Source of the DNA: Chloroflexia bacterium
GTDB taxonomy: Bacteria > Chloroflexota > Chloroflexia > DTKN01
DNA length: 64,000 nt
Direction: 5' to 3'
Assembly: GCA_016928715.1 (NCBI GenBank)
Contig: JAFGKG010000101.1
Span: 1-64,000, forward strand
Numbering within the stretch: the stretch's first letter is position 1; each line of letters starts with the position of its first letter. Below are positions 9,608-24,984 of the stretch, piece after piece. The notes below the pieces were generated by a model that worked only from the letters and a program-made list of their open reading frames with translations, did not search any database and was not told where the DNA came from. The position numbers and the translations under genes are program-made.

Positions 9608-11625
9608 ACATGGCGAGGCGTTTTTCTTGGTGGAAACGACGGGAAGGGCCAGCCCGGCCGCAGGCCGAGGAATCGCTGGCCTCGGTCCTGGCGGTCAGCC
9701 GGGCGGTCGCGGCCAGCCTGGACCTGGAAGAGATCCTAGAGACGGTCCATGGCCAGGTCGAGCGCGTCTTTGACACCACTAATTTCTACATCGCCGTCTA
9801 TGACGAGGAGTGCGACGAGTGGGTCATCCCCTTCCAGTTGGAAGGGGGACAGCGCCAGCCCTCCGTCCGCTACAAAGCCATAGCCGGGCTGACCGGTTAC
9901 ATCATCCGCCACCGCCAGCCGCTGCTGCTGCCCACCCTGGTCGAGTTCACGACCTTTATGCAGCGCGAGGGGGTCTCGCAGATCGGGCCGACGGCCAAAT
10001 CCTGGATGGGCGTGCCCCTCTTGGCCGGGGAACAGGTCGTGGGCGTGATGGGCATCCAGAGCTACACTCAGGAACAACTCTACGGGGAGCATGAGCTGGT
10101 CCTCTTTTCAACCATCGCCAACCAGGTGGCCGTGGCCATCGCCAATGCGCGCTTTTACCAACAGGCGCGCCGGAGGGCCGAGGAGATGGAGACCCTCTTT
10201 AGCGTGAGCCGCATCCTCTCGACCAGCCTGGCTCCCGAGGATACCTGGAAGGCCATCTTTGAGGCCACTCACCGGCTGCTCCCCTACGAGGCCATCGAGG
10301 TCTGCCTGTACGAGGAACAGCAGGAGGTGTTGCGGCCGGTGCTGGCCGGCACGCAGGAGCGTTTTTGGCATCCGGATGAGGGTCTCTATCGGCTTGACGA
10401 GGGCTATACCGGTTGGATCGCGCGGAACCGCCGGCACTTGCTCGTCGGGGACGTGCGCGAACAGGAGGAGCTGCGGCCCAAGCACGAACAGCATGCCGGT
10501 ATTCCCCTGCGCTCCTACCTGGGTGTGCCCATGATCCTGGCCGAGCGGTTCGTGGGAACGATGGAGGTCATTAGCTCCACCCCCCACAGCTATAATGCCC
10601 ACCACGCCAACCTGCTCAGCAGTGTGGCCACCCAGGCCGCTGCCGCCGTGGAACGATCGCGCCTCTTTAGTGAGCTTGCCCAACGCCTGCAGGAGGCCCG
10701 ATTGCTCTTCCAGGTCAGCCAGGGTATCGTCGGGACCCTGGGCCTGGAGCAGGTCCTGGACCTGATCATCCGCTCCTGCGTCGAGGCCGTCCCGGCGGCG
10801 CAAAAGGGCGCCCTGCACCTGCTGGACGAGGCCGGCCGGGAACTGCAAATCCAGGCCGCTGTCGGCTATAGCCAGGGGGTGATCGATACGGTGCGCCTCA
10901 AACTCGGCCAGGGGCACGCCGGCCTGGTGGCCCAGACGGGAAAGCCGCTCATCGTCGATGACGCCCGACACAGTTCGCGCACCTACCAGGCCGAGCTGGA
11001 GCGAGTCAGCGATATCCGCTCTATTGTCTGCGTGCCGCTGCAGGTGCGTGATCGCACCATCGGCGTGATCTCGCTGGACAACCTGCAGCGGCCGGGGGCC
11101 TTTGGGCCGGCCGACCTGGAGATTCTTTCCGCTTTTGCCGGGCAGGCGGCCATCGCCATCGAGAACGCCCGCCTGTACGGGCAATCGCGCCGCCAGGTGC
11201 AGCAGTTGCGCCACCTGGCCGGCCAGGTACGGCAATCCTCCTCCCAGGCCCAGGAGCAGACCCAGGCCTCAGCCGCGGCCATCGCCGTACTGGAAGAGCA
11301 CTCCCGGGCCATCGGCCGTTTTGTCAGCCAGGTCGAGCAATTTGCCGAGCAGACCGACCTGCTGGCCTTGAACGCGGCCATCGAGGCCGCCCGGGCCGGT
11401 GAACACGGCCTCGGTTTTGCCGTGGTGGCCGAGGAGGTGCGCCACCTGGCCGAATCCTCCACCGCCGCTGTCGGTGAGATTGCCGCGCTGAGCCAGGAGA
11501 TTATCAGCGGCGTCCGCGAGGCGGTGCAGCAGATGGAGCAGGTCCGGCAGGCCGTCGGTCGGACCACCCTATTGGCCCGGGGGGCCGCGGAGTCTCAAGC
11601 CGGGCCCGGCCTCGAGCCAGGTTAG
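9604..11625 (+). CDS. Soluble triple-GAF chemoreceptor
   Basis: 673-aa cytoplasmic receptor without a membrane segment. Three GAF domains lie in series (about 25-185, 195-365 and 375-535; each ends in a NARFY/ERSRLF/NARLYG-type helix), followed by a methyl-accepting signalling domain with the tip [23 protein letters not shown]. The third receptor of the locus probably senses small cytoplasmic ligands or redox state. It starts in an ATGA overlap with the preceding receptor. The signalling part is short, ending soon after the tip, so the output coiled coil may be truncated relative to membrane receptors. Confidence 0.88.
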
Positions 11626-18007: not shown

Positions 18008-19894
18008 CTAGTAGCCCAGCTCTTTTAGGATCTCCTCCAGCTCAGGGTCCGCTTTCCTATCGACCCGGCCAATGTGCAGGTCCGCGCTCTCGATCCAGGC
18101 CTGGCAGGTCCGCAAGAAATGCTCCCCCTGTTCCTTCCAGGCGGCCGGCTCTTGTTCCAAAAGGTTGATCAATTCGTGTGGGTCCTGACGCAGATCATAC
18201 AGCTCTTGCTTGCCCTCCTGCATGGGGTGCCAGGGAAAGATATCGCTGGAGGCCCGATGCAGGATGAACTTTTGCTGTGCTGTACGGGCCGACACGGCCA
18301 GGGCATTGCGTTGTTCACTAAAGACCATATCCCGGGGCGCTCCCTCGCCCTCGATCAGCGAGAGCAGGCTGCGGCCCTCCGCCTGGGGGTGGGGCGGCAA
18401 TTCGTGCAGATCCAATACCGTGGGCAGAATATCCACCCCGGCCTCGACCAGGCCGGCGATGCGCCGGCCTGCCGGCAGGCCGCGCGGATAGTGCAGGATA
18501 AAGGGGACGTGGGTGGTGTCGTCGTACAGAGCCCAGTGTTCAAAGTAAACGTTGTGCTCGCTGAGGCTCTCGCCGTGGTCGGCCACGACCACGATCAGCG
18601 TGTTGTCGAGCAGGTCCAGTGCCTCCAAAACCTCCAGCAGATGGCCGATCTGGGCATCGGTGTAGGCAATCTCGCCGTCGTACTGGGCAATCGGATGGGC
18701 CAGGTCGGTCACATCGCCCACGATGCGGCGGCGCTCGGGGGGCACGTTGGCCATGCTGTCATTTTGGGGATCGTAGGGGTTGCCCTGGTAAAAGAGTGTG
18801 TCGTAGGGCGGCGGTGGCCTGTAGCTCCAGTGCGGATCGTAATAGTGCAGCCAGATAAAAAATTTGTCCCGATAGTGCTCCTCGATCCAGGCAATGCCCT
18901 GAGCGCTGACCTCTTCCGCGCGGCGTTCAGCCCGGGCACCGTCCTCTGGGGCGAAGGAAAAGAATTCGTCAAAGCCCTGGCCCAGGCCCGAGTAGGTCGG
19001 CAGCAGGAACTTGACCCCCACCACGGCGGCAGTGTGGTAGCCGTACCCCTGTAGGATCTGTGGCATGGTGGTTACCTCCTGGCTGAGGTAACCATTGTCG
19101 TAGAGTTGGTGGGTGCGGGGGTAGAGGGAGCTGAGCATCGAGGCGTGCGAGGGTGTAGTCACGGCCGCCTGACAGTAGGCCTGCTCAAAGAGCACGCCCC
19201 CTTTGGCCAACTGGTCCAGGTGGGGGCTGGTGTCGCGTTCGTATCCGTAGGCCGAGAGATGATCCGCCCGCAGGGTGTCTATACTGATGAGGATCACATT
19301 GGGCTGATTTTCCCGGCCTACCCGCAGGATCTCCTGGGAGGACAGGTGCGGCTGTCCCCAGGCCGCCCAGTCGTTGAGGGGGTTATCGCGGGGATCGGTG
19401 CAAAAGATCAGCGAGACCGTCTGATTGGCAAAGTCGGACAGGTCGAGGGAGACATCGATCCAGCCGCGGTCCTCGGGATTGTGGACGGGGTCGAGTTCCT
19501 GGGAAAAGAGGTAGTGTTCGCGGCCGCGCCGGTCCTGAAGAATGACCGCAAAGCGCACCCCATCGCCCGGCCCGCTCCAGGCATCCTGGTGCAGGCCGAT
19601 GGAGAATTCAAGCTGAGGCTGCTCGTATAGGCTCAGGTCGGCAAAGGTGATGCTGGAGGTGGGGTGGGCATAAAGGGCCGGCCGAACGGTGCCGACCGGA
19701 AATTCTGCTTGGATGTTGACGTGGTCGGGTGGGGCCTCGATGACGGCCGTGGATAGGGCGGTCAGCAGGTCGCACTCTCGGGGGCGCCGGACGCTGTGGC
19801 CCCTTGGCCAGAGTCCATAGGCCAGGGCCAGGAGCAGCAGGCCGATCAGCCAAGGCAGGATCTTTTTAAGCGGTAGGCTTTTCAGTGAGCGCAT
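18008..19894 (-). CDS. Membrane-anchored sulfatase-like hydrolase or transferase
   Basis: 628-aa alkaline-phosphatase-superfamily protein. A signal-anchor helix is at about 13-30, a beta-rich N-terminal region at about 40-190 and the sulfatase fold from about 195 (NVILISIDTLRADHLSAYGY). The metal site is conserved (SIDT, VVVADHGE, EHW). At the nucleophile position of the sulfatase C/S-x-P-S-R motif the protein has TTPSHASM, so formylglycine is not expected. Threonine there is known in phosphoglycerol/phosphoethanolamine transferases, so a surface-polymer transferase or phosphodiesterase is possible. It is last in a minus-strand run behind the CAP-domain gene (28-bp gap). Confidence 0.85.
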   Translation of the reverse strand: MRSLKSLPLKKILPWLIGLLLLALAYGLWPRGHSVRRPRECDLLTALSTAVIEAPPDHVNIQAEFPVGTVRPALYAHPTSSITFADLSLYEQPQLEFSIGLHQDAWSGPGDGVRFAVILQDRRGREHYLFSQELDPVHNPEDRGWIDVSLDLSDFANQTVSLIFCTDPRDNPLNDWAAWGQPHLSSQEILRVGRENQPNVILISIDTLRADHLSAYGYERDTSPHLDQLAKGGVLFEQAYCQAAVTTPSHASMLSSLYPRTHQLYDNGYLSQEVTTMPQILQGYGYHTAAVVGVKFLLPTYSGLGQGFDEFFSFAPEDGARAERRAEEVSAQGIAWIEEHYRDKFFIWLHYYDPHWSYRPPPPYDTLFYQGNPYDPQNDSMANVPPERRRIVGDVTDLAHPIAQYDGEIAYTDAQIGHLLEVLEALDLLDNTLIVVVADHGESLSEHNVYFEHWALYDDTTHVPFILHYPRGLPAGRRIAGLVEAGVDILPTVLDLHELPPHPQAEGRSLLSLIEGEGAPRDMVFSEQRNALAVSARTAQQKFILHRASSDIFPWHPMQEGKQELYDLRQDPHELINLLEQEPAAWKEQGEHFLRTCQAWIESADLHIGRVDRKADPELEEILKELGY

Positions 19895-19922: not shown

Positions 19923-20855
19923 TCACTGGTTGATGTGGGCAGGCCCGGTCAACAGCAAGAGGGCGGACTGGATTTGAAGCGAGGTCGGTTCCTGCTGCGC
20001 TGGTTGAGTGATGGGGGGGGGTTCTTGTAGGAGGATCTCGTCGCTGGCCTCAAAGATGCGGCCCTGATGATCCCGGCTTTGCACATAGAGGGTTTTGCGG
20101 CTATTGCCGGCGGGCAGTTGCCAAAGCTTCCACGGCTCGTAGCGCAGCCATGGTGTCCAGTTCAGGCCATCCTGGCTCAGACGCATCTCGCTCAAGTCTG
20201 GCCCGCCATATTGATAGATATGCACGATCCGTTCGCTGGTAGTATAGGCCTCGGATTCGATGACCAAGGGATAGACGTCCGAGCAGGCGCCCAAATCGAG
20301 GGTCCAGTAGTGTTGGTAGCCCCAGCTTTCACCAGGGTAGCTATCCTGGGGGTCAAAGGCATAGCCCACGCCGGCCTCGCGCACCTCGGTGTTGAGCAAA
20401 TTGGCACGGTGCTGGGGGCTGTTCATCCAGGCCTGTACCACCTCCTCCGGATCGGTATAGCCCACGCCGACGTTCTCTGCCAGCACAAACCAGCAGGTGT
20501 AGCCTTGGACCCCGATGCGGTCCCAGGGAGAGGTATCGCCCCGGCCTTTGTGCCCAAAAAAGTCATCCTCAGCCATACTCTGGCTGTGCAACTGGGCGGC
20601 CTCACTCAGCAGGGGATTCAAGCGTAGGGGAGGCAGCCGGCCCTGCTCGTAGCGGGCCCGATTGATCGCCACAAGTAATTCGTGGCCCCGCCGGACCTGG
20701 GGGTCTGAGGTCGGCAAGTCTTTGCCTTTGCCGGCAGCTTGACTGCCCATGAGGGCAGCAAGTGTTCCGCGCGACTGGGGCGTAATGCCCGGAAACGCCC
20801 ACAACAGCACCAGGATCAACAATGGCCATATAACGATCCGCATATTGCTGCTCAT
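19923..20855 (-). CDS. Secreted CAP (SCP/PR-1) domain protein
   Basis: About 310-aa exported protein. I start it at ATG 20855 (GGGGAG upstream) because the longer ORF overlaps the end of the TPR gene and lacks a signal. From this start there is an N-terminal hydrophobic segment (MRIVIWPLLILVLLWAF). Residues about 55-190 form a CAP domain: ELLVAINRARYEQGRLPPLR, AQLHSQSMAEDDFFGHKG, AENVGVGY and QAWMNSPQHRANLL. The final 120 residues are beta-rich and unassigned. CAP proteins act outside the cell; the molecular activity of bacterial ones is mostly unknown. Confidence 0.87.
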   Translation of the reverse strand: MSSNMRIVIWPLLILVLLWAFPGITPQSRGTLAALMGSQAAGKGKDLPTSDPQVRRGHELLVAINRARYEQGRLPPLRLNPLLSEAAQLHSQSMAEDDFFGHKGRGDTSPWDRIGVQGYTCWFVLAENVGVGYTDPEEVVQAWMNSPQHRANLLNTEVREAGVGYAFDPQDSYPGESWGYQHYWTLDLGACSDVYPLVIESEAYTTSERIVHIYQYGGPDLSEMRLSQDGLNWTPWLRYEPWKLWQLPAGNSRKTLYVQSRDHQGRIFEASDEILLQEPPPITQPAQQEPTSLQIQSALLLLTGPAHINQ

Positions 20856-20946
20856 TACCGACTCCCCGGGCTTGACTCTCTTGTTGTATTCTACCAAAAA
20901 GGTGAATGGTTTGCAAGCATGGCCGAAAGGCCGCGGCCCAGCCGTC

Positions 20947-23799
20947 CTAGGGTGCCGCGGACTCGGTGGGTACCGGGGTGGATACGGGCTGGCCCAGTTG
21001 TTCCAGCCAGTCCGCGATTTCTTGGCAACTAGCCTCTTCGTCGGCACTGCGCTGCTTCTTTTCGGGCCGTTCCTGGCACATCCGCTCGACCTGCTGGAAA
21101 TGTTCCAGTGCTTGTTGCTCGTTCAATTGGGCAAAATAGGCCACGCCGAGGTGGTAAAGGGCCGCGATATTCTTTTTGTCAGATTGCTGAGCCTGGAAAA
21201 AATAGTCCAGGGCCAGGCTGCTGCTGGCCTGGGCTTCATAGACCAATCCCAGGCCATAGAGGGTGTTAAAATCGTTGCGCTGCAGGCCGTAGGCCTGCTT
21301 GAGGTAATCAAGCGCCTGATCGAACTGGCTTTTCTCATAGGCCACCCGGCCCAGGCCGCTCAGTGCCGCCGGAACGTCCCGATCAACAGCGTTCTGGGCC
21401 TTTTGCCATTCGTCTTGGGCCTGATTCAGCAGGGCGTTGTCGGCCTCGCCCTCATTTTTCTTCCAGAGATACTTTTCTAAATAGATCGCGCCTCGCTCGA
21501 GGCGGGCCTTGAGCCTGGTCTCGGGTTGGCCCGCGGCCTTGTCGATCGCCAGGGCAAAATTGTCCAGGGCCTTTTCTTGATCCCCCAGTTTCATATCGAC
21601 TTGTCCCAAGCGCAGGTAGGCCTGGGCATAATTGGGGTTGCTGTCCACGGCCTTTTGAAACTCTTGCCGCGCCAACTCAATGTCCCCGGTCTCCTCGGCT
21701 ATTTCGCCCAGGCCAAAATGTCCGCGGGCACTGTTGATTTCCTTATCGATGAGTTCCTGGTAGGTCGCGCGGGCCTCGGCAAACTTTTTGGCGGCCTCGT
21801 CGGGCTGGCCATCATCGAGGCTTTTCGCCTGCTGACGCAGGGCCTCGGCCAGGCCCAGGTAGGCCTCCAGCCGGCTGCTGTCCCGCTCCTTGGCTGTACG
21901 AAAGGCGTTGACGGCATGGTCAAACTCTTGGTCGGCCAGATAGATTTCCCCTCGCAGGTACAGGGCGGGATACCACTGGGGATGTTTTTCCAGGGCCTGC
22001 TTCAGTTCGTCTATCGCCAGTTCCGACGGTGCTTTTTCCTGGGTGATGAGGCGCCAGACATAGACAAAGATGGAAGGCCGGCCCTCCTCCTTGGCCAAAG
22101 CCAGATAGAGCTCGGCTTGGGCCAGGTGGACTTGGGCCAGGACGTCATCGTTGCGCTTGGCCCAGGCCAGGGCATAGCGGGCCCGGCCAGGGTTGGCTTT
22201 GGGACCCTCGCGCAGGGCGGTACCCCGGGAACGGCGCCGGCGGCTCTCCTCCATGGCGAGATCCAGGGCGGTGTCCAGCTCTCGAGAGGCCCTGCTCAAC
22301 TCTTGCTCTTGCAGCAGGCTGCGACCCAGGGCGACGTAGGCCAGGGCCAGGGAATCGTCCTCCCGCACGGCGAACAGGGCGGCCTCTTTGGCTAAGGCGA
22401 TCTTTTCCTGCTCGCGGTAGGCTTCGGATAGGGCGGCCCAGGCCGCGGCGTGGTGACGATCCTCCTGGGTCACCCGTTCAAGTTGGGCCACGGCGCTTGC
22501 CGTCCCTTGGCTGCCCCCACGGGCCAGGTAGGCCCGCCCTAGATTGTATCGGGCCGGCAGGAGGTCCAAGGCCGGCTCTTTGTCCGGCGTGGCCGAATCG
22601 ACGATGGCCCGCAACAGTTGGATGGCCTCATCCAGAGAGGTGGGCGCCAGCGCGCCCAGGGACTCGCGGGTGAGTATGGTGACGGCCTTGTTGTGGGCAA
22701 CGCCAAGACAGATGGGGTCATCACTCTCCTGGGGACAGTTCGGACCATATCGCTCAGTGAGCAGCCGATCATAGGTCTGCTGGGCCTGTGCATAGTCCCC
22801 GCCCAGCCATTGCAGAGCGGCCCAGTGGAACTGTAGGACCTCTGAAGAGGGCCCGGTCGTGGCTTCATCGGGCGGTTTTTGGTCCTCGATGCGCTCAAAC
22901 TGGCCCAGGTAAAAGTGGGCCAGCCAGGTGACGGTTTGGGCAACCTCCTGGGGTGAGACCCCCTCGGTTGAACCGCCTCCGTAGAGCGAAAAGGTGGGCG
23001 GGGTCATCATCAACTGCAGATACTGCTCAAACTCGGGAACCTCGCGATCCAGGCGGGGGTTGATCGTCAGGTGGAGGTTGTAGCGGGGCGGGCTTTGTTG
23101 CTGCAGCCAACCCCAGAGCAACAGGTCGGCGTCATTGTTGCGGGCAAAGTCAAGGGCGAGGGCGGGTCGGAGTGGCGCATCTGCGGATAACTCCAGGCGG
23201 ACCAGGTCTGCCAGGCCTTGTTCTTGCAAGGACTGCTCCACCAGGGAGAGCAGTTCCTGGCTTGACTGTCTTGCCCGGAGGGAGGGGGCCATATTATCAC
23301 TCATCGAGAGAGGAGCCAGGAGAATCGTGAGGCGGTGGGGCCGTTTAGGGGTGATCCAGCGCTCCCGTAGGATCACCACCAGCAGGGGAATGCCGACAAT
23401 GAGGACGGTCCCTATGAGGAGGCGCACCAGAATGTCGGGAGTGGACTGCTGTTTCGGCTCGATCTTGGCGGAGAGTTGTGGAGGGTTCGTACTCGTAGAA
23501 AGGGGCTGTGTCTTGGAGCCTTGCAGCCCATTCTTGACCACCTGCATGCGTTCCAGCACCTGCCGACTATGTGCCTGCCAGCGCTGGCGCTTTGTCTCTG
23601 GATCGGCGGGCTGCTCTTCCTGCCAGGAGCGAGAGGAGGATGGGGATCGGCTGGGCTGGGCAGGTCGTCGTCTCCGCCTTGGTCCTTCGGCAAGGCCGCG
23701 GAGCCAGAGAAAAAACCTTTGGCGCCATTCAATGGGCAGGACCAGCAGGAGCAGGAGTAGTATCAAAAGGGCGAGGGCGGAACCGAATAGCCAGATCAT
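20947..23799 (-). CDS. Large membrane-anchored TPR protein
   Basis: 950-aa protein. Two N-terminal hydrophobic segments (residues 3-22 and 122-144) enclose a basic, disordered stretch. Residues about 155-260 look like a TolB-N/CsgG-like alpha-beta region (LTILLAPLS, DADLLLWGWL). The rest is made of many tetratricopeptide repeats (e.g. HWAALQWLGGDYAQAQQTYDRLL, AYLRLGQVDMKLGDQEKALDNF, ALYHLGVAYFAQLNEQQALEHF). It is a scaffold without visible catalytic motif. It begins three bases after the DnaB-like ATPase stop, so the two are probably made together. Confidence 0.87.
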   Translation of the reverse strand: MIWLFGSALALLILLLLLLVLPIEWRQRFFLWLRGLAEGPRRRRRPAQPSRSPSSSRSWQEEQPADPETKRQRWQAHSRQVLERMQVVKNGLQGSKTQPLSTSTNPPQLSAKIEPKQQSTPDILVRLLIGTVLIVGIPLLVVILRERWITPKRPHRLTILLAPLSMSDNMAPSLRARQSSQELLSLVEQSLQEQGLADLVRLELSADAPLRPALALDFARNNDADLLLWGWLQQQSPPRYNLHLTINPRLDREVPEFEQYLQLMMTPPTFSLYGGGSTEGVSPQEVAQTVTWLAHFYLGQFERIEDQKPPDEATTGPSSEVLQFHWAALQWLGGDYAQAQQTYDRLLTERYGPNCPQESDDPICLGVAHNKAVTILTRESLGALAPTSLDEAIQLLRAIVDSATPDKEPALDLLPARYNLGRAYLARGGSQGTASAVAQLERVTQEDRHHAAAWAALSEAYREQEKIALAKEAALFAVREDDSLALAYVALGRSLLQEQELSRASRELDTALDLAMEESRRRRSRGTALREGPKANPGRARYALAWAKRNDDVLAQVHLAQAELYLALAKEEGRPSIFVYVWRLITQEKAPSELAIDELKQALEKHPQWYPALYLRGEIYLADQEFDHAVNAFRTAKERDSSRLEAYLGLAEALRQQAKSLDDGQPDEAAKKFAEARATYQELIDKEINSARGHFGLGEIAEETGDIELARQEFQKAVDSNPNYAQAYLRLGQVDMKLGDQEKALDNFALAIDKAAGQPETRLKARLERGAIYLEKYLWKKNEGEADNALLNQAQDEWQKAQNAVDRDVPAALSGLGRVAYEKSQFDQALDYLKQAYGLQRNDFNTLYGLGLVYEAQASSSLALDYFFQAQQSDKKNIAALYHLGVAYFAQLNEQQALEHFQQVERMCQERPEKKQRSADEEASCQEIADWLEQLGQPVSTPVPTESAAP

Positions 23800-23802
23800 C
23801 TC

Positions 23803-24870
23803 CTACTCGTAGACCAGCTTCTCATCAATCAAGCGTTGCTCGACGATGCTACCGAGTGGATTGAAGCAAAAGTATTCCGAGCGCAATTCGAACTCGACAT
23901 CGATCATTGCCTTGCCCGCCCGGTTCTTTTCGACGGTAAAGACGATCCAGTTGCGATAGGACTCGGCCTTGTAGGGATCGAAGGCAATGTGGTCTCGACT
24001 GACGATATAGTATTTGTTGTTCATAATGATGGCGACATCGCATTCATAGTCCAGGGCCGAGCTGCCGCGTAGATGGTGTAGGTGGAGGCGTTTGGCCCGC
24101 AACCCCTCCCGACCGGCGGCCACGATAGCAAAAACGGGAATGTTCAAGGACAGCGCGAGGTCCTTGAGCCCCTCCACAACAATGGTCACTTTGTCATTTT
24201 CGTCCACGGTCTTGATGGGCTCAACAGAGACTTTTTGTAGATAATCGACAAAGAGGACGACGTTGCCCTCGCAGGTCGTGACCAGTCGGTGGGCGAGCGA
24301 ACGCAGGGATTGCAGGTTGGTGCTGATGGGATTGCCTTTCATCACGATCAGGCGGTTGGCGTATTCGGCGATCTTTTTAAGCGAGTTTCGGGCTAGGGTG
24401 TGGCCCTGCAGGATTTGGTACAGCCCCTGGGATCTGGCCTCCCCGGTCCGTTTGGTCAGCACCACGTTGCGCAGGTCGCGCATCCGCAGGCCGTGCTGGT
24501 ATTCCTGCGAGTTCAGGTCGATGCTTTCCATACAGAGCAGGCGATGCAGCAGGTGTGTTTCCGGGTGCTCGTAAGAAACATAGAAGGCATAGATCTTTTC
24601 ATTGGCGGCCAAGTTGCGGGCTGCCTGCAGGGCAAACATGGTCTTGCCGATGCCCTGGGCTCCCCCCAGTAGGATCAGATCTCCACGCATCAAGCCGCCG
24701 CCGACAACGCGATCGATTTGATCAAAACCCATCGGCAGCGGCACATAGTCCTCCATTTGTCCCAATGTGACCTGCTGGTCAGCCTGACGCAGCACTTGGG
24801 CAATGGTCAACGGTGTGCTCGTGGGCCAATGGGGCTCTTCCTCTTGGGGAATTTTGCGGATTTCGCCCAT
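23803..24870 (-). CDS. DnaB-like RecA-fold ATPase
   Basis: 355-aa protein matching only the C-terminal (RecA/KaiC-like) domain of the replicative helicase DnaB. Walker A GGAQGIGKTMFA is near 70, a glutamate-bearing YVSYEHPE near 95, Walker B VVLFVDYLQKV near 210, then LRGSSALDYECDVAI and VEKNRAGKA as in DnaB motif H4. It lacks the DnaB N-terminal hexamerisation domain, so it is not the main helicase. I prefer ATG 24870 (GGGAGA upstream) to GTG 24873. Its stable partner seems to be the TPR protein; the function is unknown. Confidence 0.82.
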   Translation of the reverse strand: MGEIRKIPQEEEPHWPTSTPLTIAQVLRQADQQVTLGQMEDYVPLPMGFDQIDRVVGGGLMRGDLILLGGAQGIGKTMFALQAARNLAANEKIYAFYVSYEHPETHLLHRLLCMESIDLNSQEYQHGLRMRDLRNVVLTKRTGEARSQGLYQILQGHTLARNSLKKIAEYANRLIVMKGNPISTNLQSLRSLAHRLVTTCEGNVVLFVDYLQKVSVEPIKTVDENDKVTIVVEGLKDLALSLNIPVFAIVAAGREGLRAKRLHLHHLRGSSALDYECDVAIIMNNKYYIVSRDHIAFDPYKAESYRNWIVFTVEKNRAGKAMIDVEFELRSEYFCFNPLGSIVEQRLIDEKLVYE

Positions 24871-24914
24871 CACATTTCTCCCGCCGCTCTCATTTCGCTC
24901 TCACGGGTTTTCCC

Positions 24915-24955: not shown

Positions 24956-24984
24956 TTGACAGCACCGAGGGCTGCATGTATAAT
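24956..24984 (+). promoter_or_regulatory. Consensus promoter of the glycosyltransferase operon
   Basis: TTGACA 24956-24961, 17-bp spacer, TATAAT 24979-24984 with a TG extension: a full consensus. ATG 24983 of the longer ORF falls inside the -10 box, which argues that translation starts downstream at TTG 25025. Confidence 0.8.

Follow-up and report, generated by a model that had tools for sequence, protein, structure and literature searches.

The locus lies on the minus strand of a 64,000-nucleotide stretch from a Chloroflexia bacterium (positions 1 to 64,000 of contig JAFGKG010000101.1; hereafter the window). Its first gene (23803..24873, with GTG 24873 or ATG 24870 as candidate start codons) encodes a 356-aa DnaB C-terminal-type (RecA-fold) ATPase that belongs to a Chloroflexota-wide orphan family. 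A lineage-specific gene for a 950-aa TPR protein with two TM segments (20947..23799) follows 3 bp downstream, and then come genes for a secreted CAP-domain protein (19923..20858; 2e-18 in a profile search) and for a membrane-anchored protein of the sulfatase superfamily (18008..19894; sulfatase match 2.9e-55). On the plus strand, the divergent gap next to the ATPase gene holds a perfect sigma-70 consensus promoter (TTGACA-17-TATAAT, 24956..24984) directed toward a glycosyltransferase gene. At the ATPase/TPR junction (...GAG TAG GAG ATG), the 3-bp gap keeps both ORFs in one frame and no well-spaced Shine-Dalgarno was found for the TPR gene start, so that the TPR gene is probably translated by stop-start coupling. 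Only TAG GAG separates the two ORFs (23799-23805), and amber read-through would yield a fusion of ~1,300 aa. The CAP ORF was originally listed with a start at 21047, which makes it overlap the TPR gene; by inspection of the reading frame, a start near 20858 is likelier. The resulting gap of ~90 bp between the TPR and CAP genes contains a promoter-like site on their strand (20916-20888), so the CAP and sulfatase genes may form their own transcription unit and a four-gene operon is uncertain. Upstream of the TadA-TadB-TadC genes that this genome carries lies a 39%-identical paralogue of the sulfatase (L186, G000:C183). A PADLOC search for defence systems returned nothing for the ATPase and only a TPR-level PrimPol match for the TPR protein.

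The ATPase matches the Pfam DnaB_C domain (PF03796) at 1.4e-28 (100 bits; cut-off 27), while a Pfam search found no DnaB N-terminal domain (PF00772), only ~45 residues preceding the core. The match to KaiC (PF06745; 31.8 bits) is far weaker and corresponds to P-loop similarity. Scores against the NCBIfam models all fell below their cut-offs, be it the DnaB equivalog (91 vs 385 bits), sms (RadA/Sms; 40.9 vs 403 bits) or FlaH (ArlH/FlaH; 21.7 vs 215 bits). The predicted fold (mean pLDDT 84) is that of the RecA-like domain of DnaB including the linker-helix region, with a flexible pore loop appearing as a low-confidence stretch (236-252), and the best 50 Foldseek matches to this model were all DnaB or DnaB-like. 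An earlier sequence-only reading had placed the four genes where we find them, with a RecA-type ATPase reduced to the DnaB C-terminal domain and a two-TM TPR protein of 950 aa 3 bp behind it; these descriptions are borne out, as is its view that no named system fits.

We then compared 103 sequences of the ATPase family with 8 DnaBs from the same genomes. The family retains the Walker A Lys/Thr, the Walker B Asp, the catalytic Glu and the Lys-x-Arg finger in 99-100% of its members. In contrast, the H3 sensor Gln (8/8 DnaBs) is replaced by Ala in 99% of the 103 sequences, and the R-E-S-G of DnaB H4 (RExG) reads R-G-S-S (RGxS) in ~98-100%. In the pore loop, 99% have an Arg where DnaB contacts ssDNA, and further basic residues are invariant or near-invariant. 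In the GstDnaB structure (4ESV), the H3 Gln and RExG residues reportedly couple nucleotide to ssDNA, and likewise in DnaB/RecA. With the catalytic motifs kept and both Gln and RExG lost, the family is naturally read as active ATPases whose coupling to nucleic acid would be altered. What it has in common with the DnaB C-terminal domain (PF03796; 4ESV, 3BH0) is the RecA fold, Walker A/B, the catalytic Glu, the Lys/Arg finger and the linker-helix region; it departs from DnaB by the missing N-terminal domain, the two substituted motifs and a conserved C-terminal tail, and a separate DnaB is present in the same genomes.

A single-protein query against genome contigs retrieved no relatives and an alignment query was needed: one alignment-based scan across 84,980 species genomes returned 268 relatives, of which 80 were kept. 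Among these, 78 are titled Chloroflexota and the two exceptions are labelled Pleurocapsa and Bacteroidetes. The Bacteroidetes-labelled relative groups among Anaerolineae in the tree; the contig titled Pleurocapsa minor (L158 / G465:C19; 204,486 bases) itself appears to be Chloroflexota. The ATPase occurs in 52 of the 399 genomes of a phylum sample, as a single copy except in the window's genome; there, another orphan copy (48% identical) is present, and an ordinary DnaB is encoded elsewhere. In the tree, the ATPase family is one clade and the DnaBs resident in these genomes are another (support 100); the window copy groups next to Anaerolineae orthologues, and the second copy next to that of genome G004. 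The ATPase belongs to an old, well-preserved orphan family apart from replicative DnaB, whose divergence from DnaB-type helicases would be ancient and whose inheritance would run mainly within Chloroflexota. A literature search, with most subscription journals and preprints outside its coverage, found no paper on the family or on a Tad link. At the second copy (L016), the ATPase gene shares an ATGA overlap (10061-10064) with a gene for a TgpA-type membrane transglutaminase, with a strong Shine-Dalgarno, and a prfB-like peptide chain release factor gene lies downstream in opposite orientation.

In the neighbourhoods of the relatives, where genes were called by homology-weighted ORF picking, genes of the Tad (type IVc) pilus recur. 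In two distant members (G475 and G481), TadA and a NERD-type gene flank the ATPase gene in a Tad operon with a TPR/TM/PD40 protein; the gene order in L181 and L182 is TadB-TadC-TPR/TM-TadA-ATPase-NERD-TadE. The protein encoded between ATPase and TadE is ~600 aa long (L181, 6253-8112, with a NERD domain; L182, 6699-8483). A rescan then showed Tad genes adjoining the ATPase in G273, in an Ardenticatenia genome and, divergently, in f4. The ATPase gene ends the order TadA-TadB-VWA/TadC-ATPase in L063 (4 bp) and CpaB-CpaE-TadA-ATPase in L102 (51 bp); in L011 and L015 it is transcribed divergently from a Flp/TadE/TadE/TadG/CpaB/CpaE/TadA(/TadB/TadC) operon. The Tad-adjacent ATPases occupy four separate branches of the family tree, on which Tad adjacency takes 5 changes; the association was first noticed and then tested (post hoc), and under a rough null the chance of finding it in 4 of 14-30 lineages is ~4e-5 to 8e-4. 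TadE, a loose Tad marker that alone is no proof of a complete Tad system, is present in 44/44 ATPase-positive vs 26/34 ATPase-negative genomes (Fisher p 8e-4) and, in an even phylum sample, in 17/17 vs 78/134 (Fisher p 3e-4), both tests being blind to kinship. This repeated presence of relatives in or beside Tad genes suggests that the family serves a surface machine and not replication.

Most members of the family do not lie beside TadA, TadB or TadC; the f21 loci, for instance, have only a TadE/TadG cluster a few kb from the ATPase. Tad can do without the ATPase, since many Tad-bearing genomes carry no gene for it. Tad loci, without secretins, have been reported in about a third of Chloroflexota genomes (PMC12488501). 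In the window genome, the Tad locus is on another contig (C183), apart from the ATPase gene, and neither a Tad role nor a nucleic-acid motor role draws direct support from the window locus.

By analogy with the archaellum, we tentatively favor a function as an accessory or regulatory RecA-type ring ATPase of the Tad motor, ArlH-like in its action. The protein would be a stand-alone RecA-fold ring ATPase that stays in the cytoplasm, assembles as a hexamer via its linker helix and Lys/Arg finger, and assists or regulates the TadA motor of the pilus. Our working model is ArlH beside ArlI/ArlJ; ArlH is a KaiC homologue able to regulate the archaellum ATPase ArlI (PMC12488501). In the window genome, the ATPase gene happens to precede that of the lineage-specific TPR membrane protein, which probably exposes its TPR part on the outside of the cell. 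The likeness to ArlH/FlaH is that of an ATPase with a single RecA-type domain whose gene adjoins those of a T2SSE ATPase and a T2SSF membrane protein, and this gene context holds for part of the family only; unlike ArlH/FlaH, the ATPase is DnaB-like in sequence and most members lie away from such loci. KaiC resembles it in the P-loop but has two tandem RecA domains where the ATPase has one. Its presence within the Tad operon in L181, L182, L063 and L102 also recalls Tad accessory proteins (TadZ/CpaE, TPR proteins); however, CpaE-like genes coexist with the ATPase in L011, L015 and L102, so that it is not TadZ/CpaE. The wider proposal, that Chloroflexota Tad pili would use a second ring ATPase of DnaB lineage in ArlH's part, through independent recruitment of a RecA-type regulator, is possible but on balance unlikely. 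If the Tad link is true, type IV filament motors recruited a RecA-type regulator at least twice. The genes of the family match DnaB helicase models and could be mistaken for helicases; a normally single-copy and motif-perfect family, spread over several Chloroflexota lineages, that lost the sensor residue and kept the catalysis motifs offers a testable case of a helicase motor with a new task.

The chief rival, suggested by the conserved basic pore loop, is a DNA- or RNA-acting motor: a single-domain DnaB-type ring that, lacking a primase-binding domain, would translocate along single strands during repair, recombination or replication restart. This lesser but serious possibility is consistent with fold matches that are all DnaB at the top and with the near-universal ssDNA-contact Arg and its basic neighbors. 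It also draws on f21, where a J-domain gene lies directly downstream of the ATPase, co-directional in 6/7 loci (-8 to 15 bp, thus at most 15 bp away or overlapping), and its product has a C-terminal region with a weak ExoX-like match (8.6e-6 to 0.0015). The replacement of the sensor Gln by Ala and of RExG by RGxS argues against such a motor, as does the finding that in the examined relatives' loci the ATPase gene is not consistently linked to genes for replication or repair.

A cytoplasm-membrane complex of the ATPase with the TPR membrane protein is improbable. The 3-bp in-frame junction, the ATGA coupling of the genome's other copy to a membrane transglutaminase and the TPR/TM protein, unrelated to that of the window, near the ATPase in the L181 and L182 Tad operons would all fit such a complex. 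However, the sequence-only reading, which treated the two proteins as a unit and proposed to look for conservation of the pair, is not supported on this point: the TPR gene is absent from the ATPase neighbourhoods of all ~125 relatives (some contigs end near the gene), leaving the two genes unlinked in every other locus examined, an outcome that the reading itself had named as refuting. Across 400 phylum genomes, the N-terminal 383 residues of the TPR protein hit the window alone, and the first 350 have no match in 16 genomes with near ATPases; altogether, no homologue of the N-terminal half was found in 415 other genomes, the window's own family being represented by this genome alone. The part that precedes the TPR repeats has no convincing PDB or Pfam match, and a fold model of residues 146-400 (pLDDT 38) was too poor for use. 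Given the missing TPR gene in relatives and this homologue-less N-terminal half, the pair is lineage-specific, and we consider it mostly a local gene neighbourhood, an accident of gene order. The protein itself matches several TPR models (best 4e-18) and has hydrophobic segments at residues ~1-23 and 125-144 (19-residue means 2.9 and 2.65; later maximum 1.06). The charge of the intervening loop (23-124; +19/-9) favors a cytoplasmic loop and extracytoplasmic TPRs, which speaks against the complex, but the residues after TM2 are basic too and leave the topology unsettled. A possible homology to the TPR/TM protein of the L181/L182 operons was rejected, since the similarity (E 0.04) is at the level of the repeats only.

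A role in proteostasis, with the ring ATPase acting together with J-domain and FtsH functions, is equally improbable. It would account for J-domain genes directly downstream of the ATPase in two lineages, f21 and an Anaerolineae group (nine loci, 36-303 bp), and for ftsH upstream in f32 and f21, where the ATPase gene follows it directly or after an M20 peptidase. However, these linkages are missing elsewhere, and the J-domain proteins of the two groups differ in domain order. The tilS-ftsH gene order occurs in many bacteria. As ftsH follows tilS in f32 and f21 as well, it may be a passive neighbor. In many Anaerolineae, the ATPase gene is divergent from an rpoD-type sigma gene; in one Anaerolineae group (L126, L128, L129, L132 and L141), a divergent neighbor of the ATPase gene codes for a protein that has two FHA domains.

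DnaB_C-type helicases do occur in phages (phrog_243), but a decayed copy of a phage or plasmid helicase (the sequence-only reading had raised the phage case against itself) is effectively ruled out by catalytic residues that are intact across 103 sequences, by a single clade and by the absence of any member from 2.9 million viral contigs with the method used. The one close record from a nominal phage, MT839844.1 (L180), labelled "Bacteriophage sp.", carries an aldehyde dehydrogenase gene, an ATPase-family gene, dxr and a site-2 protease gene, and reads as a cellular chromosome fragment, not a phage. The replicative DnaB of the window genome (L175, G000:C59, 739-2772) is split within H4 (DLRDSG / SIEQDAD) by an insert of ~140 aa that resembles a mini-intein, and some other DnaBs in the set (L176 and L177) are also unusually long.
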